Positions 1 through 6,224 of a DNA stretch of 60,923 nt are shown piece after piece (the stretch's first letter is position 1; each line of letters opens with the position of its first letter). The stretch is taken from assembly GCA_902573725.1 (NCBI GenBank), contig CACGLE010000005.1, positions 1-60,923 on the forward strand, in the 5' to 3' direction. Below the pieces are notes generated by a model, which saw only the letters and a program-made list of their open reading frames with translations, made no database searches and was not told where the DNA came from. The position numbers and the translations under genes are program-made. The DNA comes from an uncultured SAR116 cluster alpha proteobacterium. GTDB lineage: Bacteria; Pseudomonadota; Alphaproteobacteria; Puniceispirillales; Puniceispirillaceae.

Positions 1-85
1 GACACAGTATTGACACAGTGCATCAGTTAGGTATGCTATATTCATAAATAGGATCTGTTTAAAAACAAGTACTTACATAGGAAAA

Positions 86-150
86 TGGATAGAGCGCTGC
101 CCTCCGAAGGCAGAGGTCAGAGGTTCGAATCCTCTCGGGTGCGCCATTTT
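86..150 (+). repeat. Left attachment repeat: 3' fragment of tRNA-Arg(CCG)
   Basis: Positions 86-146 match a tRNA-Arg from the middle of the D arm through the anticodon arm (loop CTCCGAA, anticodon CCG), the T arm (GGTTCGAATCC) and the acceptor 3' strand ending in encoded CCA. The 5' acceptor strand and the first half of the D arm are absent, and the preceding bases do not resemble them, so this is not a working tRNA. Positions 93-150 are identical to 5058-5115. Confidence 0.85.
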
Positions 151-249
151 ATCACATATATTTCAATAGTTTAGACAACTCTTTATTCGGAGTTGTAATC
201 AGAGAATGCAGTTTTGATGCAGATTTGACACAAAGATGAGTTCAAATCG

Positions 250-1236
250 ATGAGTTGTGTGAGAAAAAGAGGTGCCAAATGGACTGCTCAAGTGCGAGTT
301 TCTGGTTGGCGTAGTTTTACCAAAACATTTGCTAAAAAGTCAGATGCAGTTCTCTGGTCTAATGAATTAGAAGCAAGACTTCGCGCTGCGCCTTTACCAA
401 CTAATCAAGTTAATCAGAAAATCTTGCTGGCAGATTTACTTCTGAAATATGCAGATGAAATATCTCCCAATCACAAAGGCGTTATTTCTGAAACATACAG
501 ATTAAAGTCAGTCGCCAGACGCTGGATAGGAAAATTAGATATTCGATATTTGAATAAGCATCAGTTTATCCAATATCGTGATGATAGATTAGAAGAAGTA
601 TCTGGCGACAGCGTTTGTGCTGAACTTAATTTGATTAAGCGTGTATTAGATACAGCAGATAAAATCTGGAACATTGGACTTCCTAGTAACCCTGTCAGAG
701 AAGTTGCTCTTTCAAAAAAGAACAAATCACGCGTAAGACGCCTGGCGACCGAAGAGAAAGTTGCTATCCTTGACGCTGCTCATAAACAACAAAATCCATA
801 CATCGCTCCTGCCATTGAATTTGCCATTGAAACAGCAATGCGGCGCTCAGAACTTCTGGCGATTAAATGGAATGATGTTTGTTTGGAAACTGGATTTGCA
901 AAATTACACGACACGAAGAATGGTGAGAGCAGAACCGTTCCTCTGACCGCCAGATCACGATGTATTTTGAGGGCGCTGTAGAAGAACACAGACTATGTAT
1001 TCCCAATTAGTGCTACCTGTCTGCATCAAGCATTCAAGCGCGTTACCAGAAAAACTGGCATTCAAGATTTACGCTTCCACGATTTGAGGCACGAGGCGGT
1101 ATCAAAATTTTTCGAAATAGGAATGTCAGTGCCAGAGGTAGCACTCATTAGCGGTCACAAAGATATGACCCAGTTGTTCAGGTATACGCACCTAAATCCT
1201 AATCAGGCATTTCAAAAGTATGATTTATTTAACTAG
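250..1236 (+). pseudogene. Tyrosine recombinase/integrase interrupted by an in-frame TAG
   Basis: The open frame from ATG 250 stops at TAG 979-981 after 243 codons. The same frame then continues without another stop to TAG 1234-1236, giving a 328-codon total typical of phage/island integrases. The N-terminal part has an Arm-binding-like region, a core-binding domain and the first catalytic arginine (TAMRRSELL). The beta-hairpin lysine lies in LHDTKNGE. The part after the stop holds the HxxR box (HDLRHE), the second histidine (SGHKDM) and the nucleophile tyrosine (FRYTH). All catalytic residues are thus present in one frame, split by a single amber codon at codon 244. The gene reads away from the tRNA fragment beside it, as usual for tRNA-site integrases. 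Recent inactivation is the simplest reading; a sequence error or suppression is possible. Confidence 0.85.
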
Positions 1237-1339
1237 GACTTTATTGCATTTATAGATTAGCAATTTACTCCAGTTCCTGCGCCTTTAATTCTCTGAGGAT
1301 GCGCATTCCTAGTGTATAAGTTCAGACTTTGCGCAAACT

Positions 1340-1534
1340 CTATTTTTTCTTCTCCAGTTTGCGCATCAGTTCGATATTTTGTTCTGACAAAAATACTATT
1401 TGCGCAGATAACTCACGGAACATCATTTTGAGTTTTTGACGGCAAATATTATCGTCTTTTGAACGAGCGTATTCATTGCTAATTGTAATTAATTTCCGAT
1501 TTGATGTCTTTATTTGTTGCACTATTTGTGTCAT
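1340..1534 (-). CDS. Small charged coiled-coil protein, unknown
   Basis: This 64-residue frame lies 43 bp downstream of the Mrr-type nuclease gene on the same strand. The protein has no Cys. It is rich in Lys, Arg, Glu and Gln, with a heptad-like pattern in the second half (LSAQIVFLSEQNIELMRKLEKKK region) suggesting a short coiled coil. A purine-rich AGAGGA lies about 15 bases before the ATG, a rather long spacing, and is part of a small palindrome at 1551-1567. I recognise no family. It could be a small regulator or partner of the nuclease, or a chance frame in the island. Confidence 0.4.
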   Translation of the reverse strand: MTQIVQQIKTSNRKLITISNEYARSKDDNICRQKLKMMFRELSAQIVFLSEQNIELMRKLEKKK

Positions 1535-1577
1535 TTAAGTTTCCAAATTCCTCTATTTTATAGAGGTATTTATCTGA

Positions 1578-2600
1578 TTAAATTTCACTTAAATCTGACA
1601 AATTCATCAATAACACTTCAGTTTTTTTACTCAGTTCTAGCGCTGACATTGTAAAACCTGATACCGAAACTACCGCAGCAATTGTTCCCCCAAAAAAAGT
1701 TTTTGCCGCCAGTGCCTGTTGTACGGCGTCATTACCAACAGGTTTATCATAATTTTTGCACTGAATTATCAACTTAATTAACCCCTTTTGCGCGATTAAG
1801 TCTGCACCTTGGTCATTTGACTTTGGAGTTGTTTGGACAGACCAACTATTGCTCTCCAAAATTTCTTTGCACTCCATCTCAAGATTGAGACCCTTTTCGT
1901 GTGTTGAGGTACTCGTGGGTCTAGTTGTTGGTTTATAATCAAAATACTTTTTTGCTAGACTTAAATATAAACTTTCAACGCTCTGGAATATCGATGCCAT
2001 ATATTCAAACTTTTTGTATTTTTCTCTCTTTGGTGACCAAGATGTGTTTTCCAAAAAGTGCTCTTTTATTTTTAAGAAATCCTTCCCATCCGTTACTAGC
2101 GAGAGGTCAAACAAATGTTCTACAAAAAAAGTTCCGAACTTTTTTTGCCATTTACTTAAGTCAGATTTTCCAAATTCATCAGTCGTTACATCATACTTCA
2201 AAATATTCACAAATGCGTCTTTATGAACATAAAATTTTAACAAAAAGTATAGTTGATAGTTGATAGAATTTATCTGGGAAGGTCCTCTAACTTCAGGAAA
2301 AGTTGCGTCATAGTTATATGAAATAGTGCCAGCGGTCGTCGTTGACATTTGTATGGAAGAAACAACTTTGTCTAAGTTGTCAAATCGACCAATTAAGGTG
2401 AATAATTCCCTGAAGTCATCATCATTAATGGATGCCAACCCATCGAGTTTAACGGTACTTGATAGAAGTTGTTTGGATTTTTCTTTTATCTCACCGGGAC
2501 CAGTGAATTTAAACATTGGGTGATTAAATTCGATTAAAATGTCTTCTATAGATTTGAGAGTGTGGTTGTTGTCTAAAAGGATAAAATTTGGTTTTTTCAT
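1578..2600 (-). CDS. Mrr-type restriction endonuclease-like protein
   Basis: The last third (about residues 235-340) is an Mrr_cat restriction-endonuclease domain. A conserved glutamate-containing helix (GLNLEMECKEIL) is followed by the catalytic signature with D in QGADLIAQ and QxK in IIQCKNY, then a typical strand-helix run ending in a valine-rich strand (TIAAVVSVSG). Such domains cut DNA, often modified DNA, and are common in type IV systems. The first 230 residues match no family I recognise and may be the target-sensing part. The gene is divergent from the AIPR gene across a 482-bp structured intergenic region inside the tRNA-bounded element. A role in defence against foreign DNA is inferred from the domain and location. 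Confidence 0.8.
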   Translation of the reverse strand: MKKPNFILLDNNHTLKSIEDILIEFNHPMFKFTGPGEIKEKSKQLLSSTVKLDGLASINDDDFRELFTLIGRFDNLDKVVSSIQMSTTTAGTISYNYDATFPEVRGPSQINSINYQLYFLLKFYVHKDAFVNILKYDVTTDEFGKSDLSKWQKKFGTFFVEHLFDLSLVTDGKDFLKIKEHFLENTSWSPKREKYKKFEYMASIFQSVESLYLSLAKKYFDYKPTTRPTSTSTHEKGLNLEMECKEILESNSWSVQTTPKSNDQGADLIAQKGLIKLIIQCKNYDKPVGNDAVQQALAAKTFFGGTIAAVVSVSGFTMSALELSKKTEVLLMNLSDLSEI

Positions 2601-2649
2601 TTATAAACACCAGACTGATTTAGTCTCAACTTAACATAAACATCTTAAG

Positions 2650-3005
2650 TTTTCCATTTGCGGATGTGTTCTGGGCACACCAACCCTTCTGCGGGTCAGT
2701 GTGCCTCAAAATGGAACCTGCGTTCGCGCCCATTGCCACATCCAGTCAGAGAAACCTAATCGAATAGGTAAGGCAGGTAATCCGATGTCCTTTTATACTC
2801 CACCTAACTACGGTAGCGATGCATAACCGACTGGATGATGCCTGCATCGCTTGAAGGTGATAATTCCTTCGTCTTGTTGGCAATCTTTAGACACCAATTC
2901 CAACTTTGGTGTGTCATCACATAAATCTGTTGCCTAACTAAGTTCTGAACCAGCGATGCTATTTCTCAATAGGTTTGCACACTCAAACTTTGGTTGGTCA
3001 CCACC
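2650..3005. ncRNA. Candidate structured RNA or cis element between two defence genes
   Basis: This gene-free stretch is richer in G+C than its surroundings and holds many exact inverted repeats: TTCCATTTG 2652-2660 with CAAAATGGAA 2707-2716 (one bulge); GGCACAC 2674-2680 with GTGTGCC 2699-2705; GGATGTG 2662-2668 with CACATCC 2737-2743; CATCCAGTC 2739-2747 with GACTGGATG 2829-2837; AGCGATGCA 2815-2823 with TGCATCGCT 2843-2851; GAAGG 2853-2857 with CCTTC 2866-2870; ACACCAA 2891-2897 with TTGGTGT 2906-2912. Some pairs cross, as pseudoknots do. CCTAACTA and AGCGATGC each occur twice (2803 and 2933; 2815 and 2952), suggesting an internal duplication. No open frame explains it. It matches no known RNA family that I can recognise, and the transcribed strand is not known. 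Confidence 0.4.
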
Positions 3006-3082
3006 ACACTTCCAAATATTTATCCAATTAATGCTGCACAAATTAAAAATTTTATGGTTTAAATTAGATATAGGAGATTGTC

Positions 3083-4957
3083 ATGGCAGAACTCAAAGCA
3101 AAGTTTAGAGACGGGTTAAAACGCTTTGTTGAGCAGTATTTTAATGAACAAGAAGGCAGTCTAAATGATAATCAACGTAGTGAGGGACTTGCATTATTTT
3201 ACCTGTCCAACGTCTTTGGCAGGTTAAATCCAGGAGCAATTTCAGAAGAACCAGAAGATATTTACCCTCTAATTGTTGATGGAAAAGATGACCAAGGTGT
3301 TGACGTAATTTTTAGTCATGACACGCACCACTACCTCATTCAATGCAAATATAGAGGGCAGAAAAAAACAGAAAGCGAAAATGAAGTAATCCATTTCAGG
3401 GACATATTTGGACGTATTCATCCAGACGTAGGAAGAGATTTTAACAAAAATCAAAAAGTCCTAGATGCGACCGCTGAGATTGATTGGAAACAAGATACAT
3501 TTGAACTCATATTTGTTTCATTAAGCAGAGCAACCGATGACATAAGAAATTACGAAAATCAGGATATCAACCCTATTGACCACCCAGATTTAAAAGACCT
3601 CGACGACCGCACATCGTTTAGATTTTTATCAGAGGATGACCTCAATATGGAGTATAGAGATGTCCTGTCTCGGAAAACGCTCGTCAATGTGAAACTATCG
3701 GCAATTTCTGATGCAAGCGGAAACCCATGGTACATATATGAGAACAAAAAACAACTACGCTCATTTATAACCACAATACCCGCATCCCAAATTCATACAA
3801 TGTATCAAAGTAAAAGGCAGTCTTTATTTAATTTAAACATTCGAAATTTTATTGGTGATACATCCACGAACAAAGGAATTTTAAAAACCGTTGCTGAAGA
3901 ACCTGATAATTTCTTTTTCTATAACAATGGCATTTCAGCAATTGCATCAAGAGTTGAGGAAGACGCTGGAACAGGACAACTAAATTGTGAAAATTTTTCA
4001 ATCATAAACGGCGCTCAAACATTTCGTTCCATTTCCAGAGCATACGCAAAATTAGACGGCAAATCTAAGGACGGTGTAAAAGATTTAGCAGTTATGATTA
4101 GATTAACTGAAACTCCAAACTTATTTAAAGAAACAGATTTCATTGAAAGAATAACACAATACAATAACACACAAAATGCTGTGAAAATTTCTGATTTTAG
4201 AAGCAATGACGGTGTCCAAACATCACTAGCATTTTATTTTGAAAAATTGAGTTTTAGCGGCAAGAAATACTATTACAAAAACAAGCGCACAAAAGACGCC
4301 CCGAGAAATTCAATCTCGATAAACTTAGACGATTTTTGTAAAGCAATTCATAGTTTTGACAAAGGTCCAGTAGATTTTTTTGGCGGAATTAAATATTTGT
4401 ATGAAATAAATACCTCTGGTGGATACTACTTTCTATTTGGAGACAAGGAGAGCAATCAGATTTTAAATTCTTTAAGTGAGGAAAGTTTTAAAATATTTGC
4501 ATCTAAATTTTTTATTTGTGAAACGACTAGAGTAAAATTTGATGATGTAAAAAAACAACGCATTGCGAATGAGGAGCGAACGAGAAGTGCGGATGATAAC
4601 ACTCCATTAATTTCAAAAAGAGCGCTAGAAGGTAGATATTTAATATTCTTCACCGTTGGAATTATTTTGAGAGAATTATCTCATTTAAATGAGAGCGAAT
4701 TTCATGAGTTCTTGTTAACAGAGGGTTTTGACAAACCAAGTTGGCGAACAGAAGATAAAAAAATAGAACTTATCGAAAATGCGGTGAAGTTATCTTGCGA
4801 TGTTTTGATTAATGACTATTCATATAGTATCAGAAATCGTGATTTCGTTCATAGAAACTGGTTTAGAGAACAAGATACACTTAAACGCTTAAAGCAGAAT
4901 ATTATTAATTCACACCACACTTCTCTTGAAACTTTTTATAAATCATTTAAGAACTAA
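3083..4957 (+). CDS. AIPR-family abortive infection/phage resistance protein
   Basis: This 624-residue protein has two parts. Residues about 20-110 carry a restriction-endonuclease-like signature, with D in DQGVDVIF and QxK in LIQCKYRG. Residues about 255-520 match the AIPR domain, with NLNIRNFIG, a hallmark FFYNNGISAIAS motif and FSIINGAQTFRS. AIPR proteins were first noted as abortive-infection proteins on plasmids and islands. The ATG at 3083 is preceded by a good Shine-Dalgarno site (TAGGAG, eight bases upstream). The gene is divergent from the Mrr-type nuclease and is the last gene before the right tRNA repeat. A small imperfect hairpin follows the stop. That it is a nuclease effector is inferred from the QxK motif. 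Confidence 0.85.
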   Translation: MAELKAKFRDGLKRFVEQYFNEQEGSLNDNQRSEGLALFYLSNVFGRLNPGAISEEPEDIYPLIVDGKDDQGVDVIFSHDTHHYLIQCKYRGQKKTESENEVIHFRDIFGRIHPDVGRDFNKNQKVLDATAEIDWKQDTFELIFVSLSRATDDIRNYENQDINPIDHPDLKDLDDRTSFRFLSEDDLNMEYRDVLSRKTLVNVKLSAISDASGNPWYIYENKKQLRSFITTIPASQIHTMYQSKRQSLFNLNIRNFIGDTSTNKGILKTVAEEPDNFFFYNNGISAIASRVEEDAGTGQLNCENFSIINGAQTFRSISRAYAKLDGKSKDGVKDLAVMIRLTETPNLFKETDFIERITQYNNTQNAVKISDFRSNDGVQTSLAFYFEKLSFSGKKYYYKNKRTKDAPRNSISINLDDFCKAIHSFDKGPVDFFGGIKYLYEINTSGGYYFLFGDKESNQILNSLSEESFKIFASKFFICETTRVKFDDVKKQRIANEERTRSADDNTPLISKRALEGRYLIFFTVGIILRELSHLNESEFHEFLLTEGFDKPSWRTEDKKIELIENAVKLSCDVLINDYSYSIRNRDFVHRNWFREQDTLKRLKQNIINSHHTSLETFYKSFKN

Positions 4958-4992
4958 ATACGGCGACCACAGCATTGCCACAGAGGAAAGTT

Positions 4993-5022
4993 CAGATACC
5001 ATAATATTGATATGGAAATCTG
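4993..5022 (+). terminator. Hairpin after the AIPR gene
   Basis: CAGAT (4993-4997) plus CCATA (4999-5003) can pair with TATGG (5011-5015) plus ATCTG (5018-5022) around a seven-base loop. It starts 36 bp after the AIPR stop. There is no T run after it on this strand, so a termination role is uncertain. The rest of 4958-5261 holds only the right tRNA fragment and AT-rich DNA. Confidence 0.3.
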
Positions 5023-5057
5023 TGAAAAATTAAGCGTTTTCAATAGTATATGTGAAT

Positions 5058-5115
5058 AGCGCTGCCCTCCGAAGGCAGAGGTCAGAGGTTCGAATCCTCT
5101 CGGGTGCGCCATTTT
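5058..5115 (+). repeat. Right attachment repeat: 3' fragment of tRNA-Arg(CCG)
   Basis: This is an exact second copy of the 58 bp at 93-150. It covers the anticodon stem-loop (CCG), variable region, T arm, acceptor 3' strand and CCA, plus four T residues. The similarity stops just 5' of the anticodon stem, a little shorter than the left copy. It marks the right end of the element. Ordinary chromosomal genes resume with the desaturase at 5262. Confidence 0.85.
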
Positions 5116-5261
5116 TTTCTAAAATAGAAATTGATTAGTGCCCTTAAATATAATTTGCTTTATATCAAAAAGGGCTAAGTGATTTGTATTGCAAAGTGAT
5201 GCAAGCAAAATTAAAGATTAAAGTACTCTTACTTTAGACTTTGCGATGAAATTTATAAAGC

Positions 5262-6224
5262 ATGAATAACATGACTAATAACAAGTTAACAAACAAGAAT
5301 ATGTTATCTGCTACCTATCGAGATGTTTTGCGATCACTATCAAGGGATGAAAAGCGCCGGCTAGTTAGGCTAACAAATTATCATGGTCTCCTCTGGCTCT
5401 TTGCACATTTTGCATTAATAGCATTTATGGCATGGGCTAGTTTTTATTTCACTGGCTTTTTTGGTTGGCTAGCGATTGTAGGCCAGGGCATAGGATTAAG
5501 TTTTCTTTTTTGTACAATGCATGAGTGTAGTCATGGAACTGCCTTCAGAACTACAATCCTCAATAAGCTAATTTCATCTTTTTTGGGATTGCTTTTGTTC
5601 ATAGGGCCCCGTTGGTTTCAGTATTTTCATGCTGCACATCACCGCCATACACAAGATCCAGCGCTTGATCCTGAACTTGCTATTTCAAAACCGAAAACTT
5701 GGGGACAATATCTTTTTCACCTTACAGGTATCATGATATGGACGTCAAACCTCAGAGCGTTGTTATTTAATGCAATAAGAACCCCAAAACATTCTTTTAT
5801 TCCTTCATCATCCCAATATCGCATTAAGACAGAAGCACGACTAATGCTCCTGACCTACACTTTTATATTTACTGGGGCAGTAATTTTGGCACCTCAATAT
5901 ATTTTACAGTTTTGGCTTCTACCGCTGTTATTAGGTCAGCCTTTCCTGAGGTTATTTTTGCTAGCAGAACATGCTGGATGTCCCCATGAACCAGACATGC
6001 TGAAGAACAGCCGAACCACCTTTACTAATCCCCTGGTATTATTCCTGTCATGGAACATGCCTTATCACACCGCGCATCACAGCTTTCCAGCCGTACCATT
6101 TCATCAACTACCAACATTTCATCAGCATATCGAAAAATACACAGCAGTTACAGCAAATGGATATTCTACTTTTCATCGCTTCTACGCGAAGCGCATTCTT
6201 AATGAAAAAATTCCGTCTTGTTAA
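5262..6224 (+). CDS. Membrane fatty acid desaturase-like di-iron enzyme
   Basis: This 320-residue integral membrane protein has the three histidine clusters of the membrane desaturase/hydroxylase superfamily: HECSH near residue 89, HAAHHRH near 126 and HTAHH near 268. A further AEHAGCPH segment lies near residue 235. About four to five hydrophobic spans surround them, for example LLWLFAHFALIAFMAW. These clusters bind the two irons that activate oxygen to introduce a double bond or hydroxyl group into a lipid chain. The exact substrate (acyl lipid or carotenoid) cannot be read from sequence. The gene stands alone, just outside the right boundary of the tRNA element. The ATG at 5262 gives MNNMTN; an in-frame ATG at 5271 is an alternative. 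Confidence 0.8.
   Translation: MNNMTNNKLTNKNMLSATYRDVLRSLSRDEKRRLVRLTNYHGLLWLFAHFALIAFMAWASFYFTGFFGWLAIVGQGIGLSFLFCTMHECSHGTAFRTTILNKLISSFLGLLLFIGPRWFQYFHAAHHRHTQDPALDPELAISKPKTWGQYLFHLTGIMIWTSNLRALLFNAIRTPKHSFIPSSSQYRIKTEARLMLLTYTFIFTGAVILAPQYILQFWLLPLLLGQPFLRLFLLAEHAGCPHEPDMLKNSRTTFTNPLVLFLSWNMPYHTAHHSFPAVPFHQLPTFHQHIEKYTAVTANGYSTFHRFYAKRILNEKIPSC

Follow-up and report, generated by a model that had tools for sequence, protein, structure and literature searches.

The region between the divergent genes for an Mrr-type restriction endonuclease and an AIPR protein (positions 2650-3005) is rich in complementary segments. Which molecule does it encode, and does that molecule belong to the two flanking genes? 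The region lies in a window of 60,923 nucleotides (the whole stretch of DNA analysed, contig CACGLE010000005.1) from an uncultured SAR116-cluster alphaproteobacterium. The original prediction described a structured, possibly pseudoknotted RNA that fitted no known family. Its raw material is sound: five segment pairs (four of those predicted and the 2674-2686/2693-2705 hairpin) and both duplicated octamers were located again at their stated coordinates. The region holds five maximal perfect inverted pairs of at least 8 nt, compared with 0.74 in dinucleotide shuffles (0/500), and two of 9 nt, compared with 0.19 (5/500).

Family and extent of the RNA

By sequence comparison, we identify the feature as a full-form copy of the Methylobacterium-1 RNA (RF01712) on the minus strand, with several hairpins and two pseudoknot-type interactions. 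An Rfam scan of the whole window returned three matches, two tRNA fragments and RF01712, so the core does have a known family, contrary to the original prediction.

2660-2985, minus strand: full-length conserved RNA (profile match 201 bits; 5' end at about 2985 and 3' end at about 2660, both approximate)
2806-2907, minus strand: core, RF01712 Methylobacterium-1 RNA (model positions 1-103 of 103)

The 103-nt core resembles RF01712 in sequence and structure, scoring 96.3 bits against a gathering score of 40 (cmscan; E 4e-16 over the window). In the alignment to the model, the three Rfam-consensus hairpins are present and seven base-pair positions are non-standard. The copy is the sole one in its assembly, which is 64% complete.

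Conservation in the window extends beyond the Rfam model by 78 nt upstream and 146 nt downstream. The full form is thus about 326 nt here and about 320-400 nt in the homologues, compared with 103 in the model; the added parts are a pseudoknot arm on the 5' side, an interaction between a loop and a strand, and a domain on the 3' side. The full-length match was obtained with nhmmer and a profile of 30 loci, of which the window is one row, and it nearly coincides with the interval of the original prediction. This profile matches all 34 compared loci (the window, L029-L055, L060, L063, and L084-L087); as it was made from most of them, the matches show the extent of the RNA and are not an independent discovery. 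In five loci (L031, L041, L054, L055, and L087) the 5' arm is too divergent for the profile to cover, and L031 and L054 are truncated by contig ends. The 30-row alignment (A1) leaves out L031 and L054 (contig-end cut, 3' side), L051 (5' side), and L043, which we judged to be a near-duplicate; these four are included in the 34-locus counts of profile extent, downstream open reading frames (ORFs), and the second pseudoknot. L062 was dropped because inspection placed its pattern match within a protein gene of a Crocosphaera metagenome-assembled genome. L064-L083 are contigs of loci already included and L061 is a contig of L085, so that nothing is counted twice.

RF01712 is present in 27 of 136 genomes of the order of the window (the SAR116 clade). 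A class sample of 385 genomes gave 6 carriers, four of which belong to other orders, and a phylum sample of 398 gave one, namely the genome of the window; these searches used stricter filters, by which weak matches are lost. A genome pattern scan gave 23 stretches, including one chance match (L062). Among the carriers, G015 has its 2,753,527 bases in a single contig.

Methylobacterium-1 was listed in 2010 with no function given (Weinberg et al. 2010, PMC2864571), and Table 1 of that paper scores it as "certainly" an RNA, "probably not" cis-regulatory, and "probably not" a riboswitch. A word search of the main text finds the name once and finds neither the full length, nor the two pseudoknots, nor a tie to integrative elements; the supplements or other papers may say more. 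The family is thus already in Rfam, and what is new relative to that main text is the redefined extent, the pseudoknots, and the integrative-element home. An orphan RNA family gains a full extent and a pseudoknotted architecture, as well as a home, the small integrative elements that marine bacteria carry in tRNA-Arg genes, and the question of its function becomes testable.

Helices and pseudoknots

The minus strand of 2660-2985 folds at -110.3 kcal/mol (z -4.1) and the plus strand at -97.0 kcal/mol (z -3.3). RNAalifold applied to the 30-row alignment gives 34 pairs, with double changes in 22. A structure of 44 pairs in eight helices, named with the help of RNAalifold from the same alignment, pairs in 93.8% of cells across the 30 loci, compared with 31-48% when slid by 1-3 columns, and 29 of its pairs are changed on both sides. 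Its covariation score is 0.367, compared with 0.157 in shuffled alignments (0/500) and 0.046-0.086 in slid ones. Many rows are close relatives, and the shuffle control therefore overstates the signal; sliding preserves this relatedness, although it in turn tends to favour any structure that was derived from the alignment itself. The strong covariation across homologues bears out the predicted structured, pseudoknotted RNA, and it argues against a chance fold or a gene remnant. A degraded gene had been named as an alternative; no ORF of at least 60 aa covers 2650-3005.

2891-2912, minus strand: PK1, 2908-2912 with 2891-2895 (ACACC/GGTGT); covariation, with L052 as exception
2866-2870/2853-2857, minus strand: second hairpin; 100% of cells paired, double changes in 3/5 pairs
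2843-2851/2815-2823, minus strand: third hairpin, a pair of the original prediction; 89.6% of cells paired, double changes in 9/9 pairs, tip misaligned in some rows
2829-2837 with 2739-2747, minus strand: PK2, loop of the third hairpin with a downstream strand (CATCCAGTC/GACTGGATG); own-locus versus other-locus complementarity
2789-2792/2770-2773, minus strand: helix around a conserved ATCGGA; 100% of cells paired, double changes in 3/4 pairs
2766-2768/2755-2757, minus strand: helix; 100% of cells paired, double changes in 2/3 pairs
2674-2686/2693-2705, minus strand: strong 3' hairpin; equivalent hairpin in the 16 diverse loci folded, six pairs counted in the 44-pair structure (84.4% paired)

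In PK1, a CACC on the 5' side pairs with a GGTG in the partner strand 2891-2895, which belongs to the loop that the first RF01712 hairpin (2900-2904/2876-2880) encloses; the Rfam structure lacks this interaction. The two strands covary, reading ACGCACC/GGTGCGT in L030, TCACC/GGTGA in L031, CTACC/GGTAG in L054, and CTGCC/GGCAG in L055.

PK2 is re-matched lineage by lineage. The mean score of each loop with its own partner is 19.6, compared with 13.8 with the partners of other loci (0/20000 permutations, 28 distinct loci), a test that is inflated by relatedness among the loci. The own partner ranks first in 13 loci, second in 13, fifth in L063, and fifteenth in L049. The contact could form within or between molecules, as the covariation is compatible with either. 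PK1 and a PK2-type helix are also present in L031 and L054, which lie outside the alignment, the best-scoring PK2-type helix of L054 being wobble-rich. In L049 (1766-2130), PK2 is mismatched, the 5' part is like one subtype, and the 3' part is like another; this RNA has the look of a chimaera such as recombination between two RNAs would produce.

The original prediction contained two crossings. That of 2739-2747/2829-2837 with the third hairpin is PK2 and is conserved by covariation. That of 2652-2660/2707-2716 with 2662-2668/2737-2743 is at best local, since, by eye and without a count, the first pair has no clear counterpart in relatives and the second only a partial one; 2652-2660/2707-2716 looks private to the window. 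Alignment columns 157-160 could also pair over a long range with 451-454. Because only one of these four pairs varies, and because the 3' hairpin is a competitor in some loci, we do not rely on this pairing, yet all four pairs are among the 44.

Around the 5' end, a 22-nt direct repeat (2899-2920 and 2983-3004) is 82% identical, and the sequence immediately upstream of the RNA resembles the segment of PK1 and the first hairpin, with a similar stretch in L029. A repeat of the 5' end elsewhere in the elements was considered and discarded, the occurrences being scattered.

Integrative elements that carry the RNA

The RNA is almost certainly carried by integrative elements. In the window, the element spans about 86-5111 and comprises a tyrosine integrase, a 64-aa ORF, Mrr, the RNA, and AIPR between two partial tRNA genes.

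86-146, plus strand: 3' part of tRNA-Arg(CCG), left element end (Rfam match)
250-1227, plus strand: tyrosine integrase (Pfam PF00589), broken by one in-frame TAG at 979-981
1340-1534, minus strand: 64-aa ORF, a relative of which precedes a 64-aa repressor-like ORF in L090
1578-2600, minus strand: Mrr-type restriction endonuclease, cargo (Pfam PF04471); start codon about 59 nt after the RNA end
3083-4957, plus strand: AIPR protein, cargo (Pfam PF10592, E 8e-40)
5059-5111, plus strand: 3' part of tRNA-Arg(CCG), right element end (Rfam match)

ARAGORN finds no whole tRNA in the window. A third copy of the tRNA-Arg part lies on another contig of the same genome, beside an integrase that has no internal stop, and a tandem array is therefore possible. 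A single internal stop is also seen in several relatives of the window integrase within the order (for example in G075, G064, G059, G117, G122, G009, and G033).

Scanning of 33 homologous loci finds a whole tRNA gene in the stretch for 23, of which 21 are tRNA-Arg (several isoacceptors), one is Met, and one is Pro. A duplicated partial tRNA end of 45-66 nt marks the other end of the element in 12 of these 23. The RNA lies between the two tRNA ends in 11 of the 12; the exception is L050, where it lies outside the repeat pair found. These 11 elements and that of the window span 2.6-10.2 kb, and in G015 the tRNA-Arg end recurs 28 kb away. L084 is a minimal element of 2.6 kb with an integrase, the RNA, a small ORF, and one acetyltransferase-like cargo gene. 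The carriers are small integrative mobile DNA, mostly in tRNA-Arg genes of the SAR116 clade and some other Alphaproteobacteria. A typical element would run from the tRNA end through recombinase, RNA, small ORFs, and variable cargo to the repeated tRNA end.

The recombinases are of several kinds. One tyrosine recombinase family is found in 19 of the 28 loci clustered and another in L029 and L055; L052 has a 439-aa ORF matching integrase families and a resolvase, and L060 has serine recombinases. Among 35 relatives of the common integrase (at least 50% identity over at least 257 residues), 19 have the RNA on the same contig stretch and 16 do not. The RNA accompanies 17 of 19 relatives at 72% identity or more (in G068 beyond a repeat) and 2 of 16 at 50-60%. 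Sixteen RNA-less integrase loci that were fetched (one with a more distant integrase, and some on short contigs) give no match to the full-length profile. The 16 relatives without RNA indicate that the RNA is not needed for integration by that family, and the idea that it is part of the integrase system alone was rejected on this ground.

The cargo is varied as well. The families listed for 57 chosen proteins from 12 elements, common integrases and near-duplicates left out, include a methylase, MORN repeats, a flavodoxin, a transporter, an acetyltransferase, an AbiU-like protein, AIPR, and Mrr. With unrelated recombinases and changing cargo, the RNA is tied neither to one recombinase nor to one cargo gene. 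Terminase-profile hits aside, no phage structural, packaging, or replication family is among those listed. These hits concern L046 (5274-6395), where a LAGLIDADG-type homing endonuclease-like protein has similarity to PHROG terminase profiles; we read it as a homing endonuclease of a type that resides within terminase genes, the similarity probably arising through inteins. In L041 and L032, glmS lies close to the RNA, together with a small recombinase-domain-like protein that recurs beside the RNA in L060.

Tycheposons, VEIMEs, and PICMIs (PMC10872708, PMC10803314, and PMC11389934) offer the closest comparison for the elements, tycheposons sharing integration into tRNA genes, a tyrosine recombinase, and variable cargo. 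The tycheposon hallmark, tRNA integration with a duplicated tRNA end, is found in the 12 tRNA-bearing loci above and in the window. To our knowledge, no conserved RNA has been described for any of the three groups. PICMIs are similarly small with few genes and, as described in PMC10803314, are marked by an integrase, an AlpA regulator, and a primase together and are inserted next to fis. The elements here are instead inserted in tRNA genes and have the integrase only, neither AlpA nor primase being among the families listed for the 57 cargo proteins; by gene content, they are thus not PICMIs. The SAR116 strain IMCC1322 is cultured, and its phage HMO-2011 is in culture (PMC9038755).

Proposed role of the RNA in the elements

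The explanation that we favour as a whole, with fair confidence, is a full-form RF01712 RNA of integrative elements that would act in trans in the life cycle of the element. The trans role taken by itself is plausible and put forward tentatively. Otherwise different elements keep the RNA, often near their end and with small ORFs, whatever the recombinase or cargo, and we favour a trans-acting life-cycle RNA. The RNA would be expressed from a promoter immediately upstream, and the folded molecule would work within the life cycle of its own element, by controlling activation or excision or by exploiting a helper phage. Size, tRNA integration, and gene content suggest that the elements are satellite- or tycheposon-like. 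Against a satellite, five pattern scans of viral contigs gave only one true contig with the RNA (L060), besides a chance match inside a phage gene (L104), which was dropped. Six proteins of L060 were scanned, and none has a Pfam hit to a phage structural family. An RNA of phages or plasmids proper was rejected, since blastn against 50,697 phage records and 72,556 plasmid records gave no match.

The main rival is a cis-acting leader, in which the RNA would form the 5' portion of a message and, within that transcript, control the next small ORF or first gene (here Mrr). We consider it unlikely, though less so than any of the readings that follow. In its favour and against a trans role, a co-directional ORF of at least 40 aa starts at most 80 nt past the RNA end in 23 of the 32 loci with enough flank, with a Shine-Dalgarno-like site in 16 (figures without a chance control), and no T-run terminator is seen by eye after the RNA in the locus sequences. 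However, the ORFs that follow belong to several unrelated families, and nine of the 32 loci have no close ORF. In seven of these nine (L037, L038, L040, L042, L043, L046, and L053), opposite-facing cargo adjoins the RNA and a relative of a 63-65 aa ORF lies further on. No Shine-Dalgarno-like site was found for the Mrr gene of the window, and the "probably not" cis-regulatory score in Table 1 of PMC2864571 also speaks against a leader.

One family of these ORFs, of 63-64 aa, is present in 14 of 34 RNA loci compared with 1 of 16 fetched RNA-less loci. The family has no Pfam hit; from its sequence, we think it is ribbon-helix-helix-like. Among the small ORFs scanned, only that of L060 matches a PHROG repressor (E 1.4e-4). 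Four integrase loci without the RNA (L089, L091, L092, and L099) carry a relative of the 82-aa ORF that follows the RNA in L041.

A promoter-like box is positioned upstream of the RNA.

3017-3024, minus strand: promoter-like box GATAAATA, 117 nt upstream of the RF01712 core

A TATAAATA-like box (at most one mismatch) occurs 90-150 nt upstream of the RNA in 11 of 18 loci, compared with 3.3 expected, and the exact box in 4 loci, compared with 0.2 expected; the motif was picked after viewing the same sequences, and some of the upstream regions are related. We take the box to resemble T4-type late promoters. In L084, an inverted repeat with 8-nt arms flanks a TATA-like box about 100 nt upstream of the RNA, and L037 likewise has one with 7-nt arms around a TATA-like box; by their position, these repeats are placed as an operator would be.

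The conserved structure might instead act in single-stranded DNA, as a site of transfer, replication, or recombination. The location near the element end, often beside a recombinase, suits such a site, and covariation alone is compatible with either RNA or single-stranded DNA. The base pairs themselves argue otherwise: in the helices counted, G.U outnumbers A.C by 42 to 14 (32 to 4 in the best-aligned helices), which favours wobble pairing and an RNA on the minus strand. The promoter-like box upstream in many loci points the same way, and we regard a DNA site as improbable.

Antisense RNAs of the c4/CI type are known from phages and satellites, phage P1 and satellite P4 among them. An antisense regulator of the element's own messages has this precedent, to which the non-coding transcript of the PLE phage satellites, reported to be complementary to leaders (PMC7567579), can be added. 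However, in each of 12 elements the RNA was compared, for perfect complementarity, with the same-direction sequence of that element; the longest match is 9-13 nt and never surpasses the best of 30 shuffles. Rfam gives no c4 match. Such a regulator is therefore highly improbable.

For a trans-acting life-cycle RNA, the nearest analogies are the PLE transcript and the GOLLD and ROOL RNAs. The PLE RNA is the most abundant transcript of these satellites and, like the RNA here, is a non-coding RNA in a small satellite-type island, but inverted repeats flank it and its sequence is antisense to PLE leaders by homology (PMC7567579), whereas the elements here show no excess of perfect antisense matches. 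GOLLD and ROOL are large pseudoknotted RNAs of mobile genomes, often near tRNA genes and with no function assigned, and they form homo-oligomers (PMC12286853). The RNA of the window is about half their size and resides in integrative elements, not phages; it matches neither Rfam family, in the whole window at the gathering threshold or in 1-5300 at E up to 1. By analogy, PK2 could serve self-recognition in a life-cycle RNA of unrelated marine elements, leading to an element-specific, RNA-only assembly on helper-phage infection under a T4-late-like promoter; we consider this elaborate form a long shot.

Least probable of all is the role first proposed, a guide, antitoxin, or sensor part of an AIPR/Mrr defence system, for which the position between the two genes in the window speaks and which the lack of co-occurrence outside the window in 136 genomes of the order contradicts. 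Relatives of AIPR (E at most 1e-20) are found in two genomes, that of the window and G043 (68% identity), and relatives of Mrr (E at most 1e-10) also in two, that of the window and G004 (37%). Neither G043 nor G004 has an RF01712 hit, and the loci fetched from them (L106 and L108) give no full-length profile match. At those thresholds, neither gene was detected in the 26 remaining RNA-bearing genomes of the order, many of which are incomplete. Of the 57 cargo proteins from 12 elements, one matches AIPR and one Mrr_cat, and both belong to the window itself. The link is thus shared residence in one mobile element, and the RNA is independent of AIPR and Mrr.
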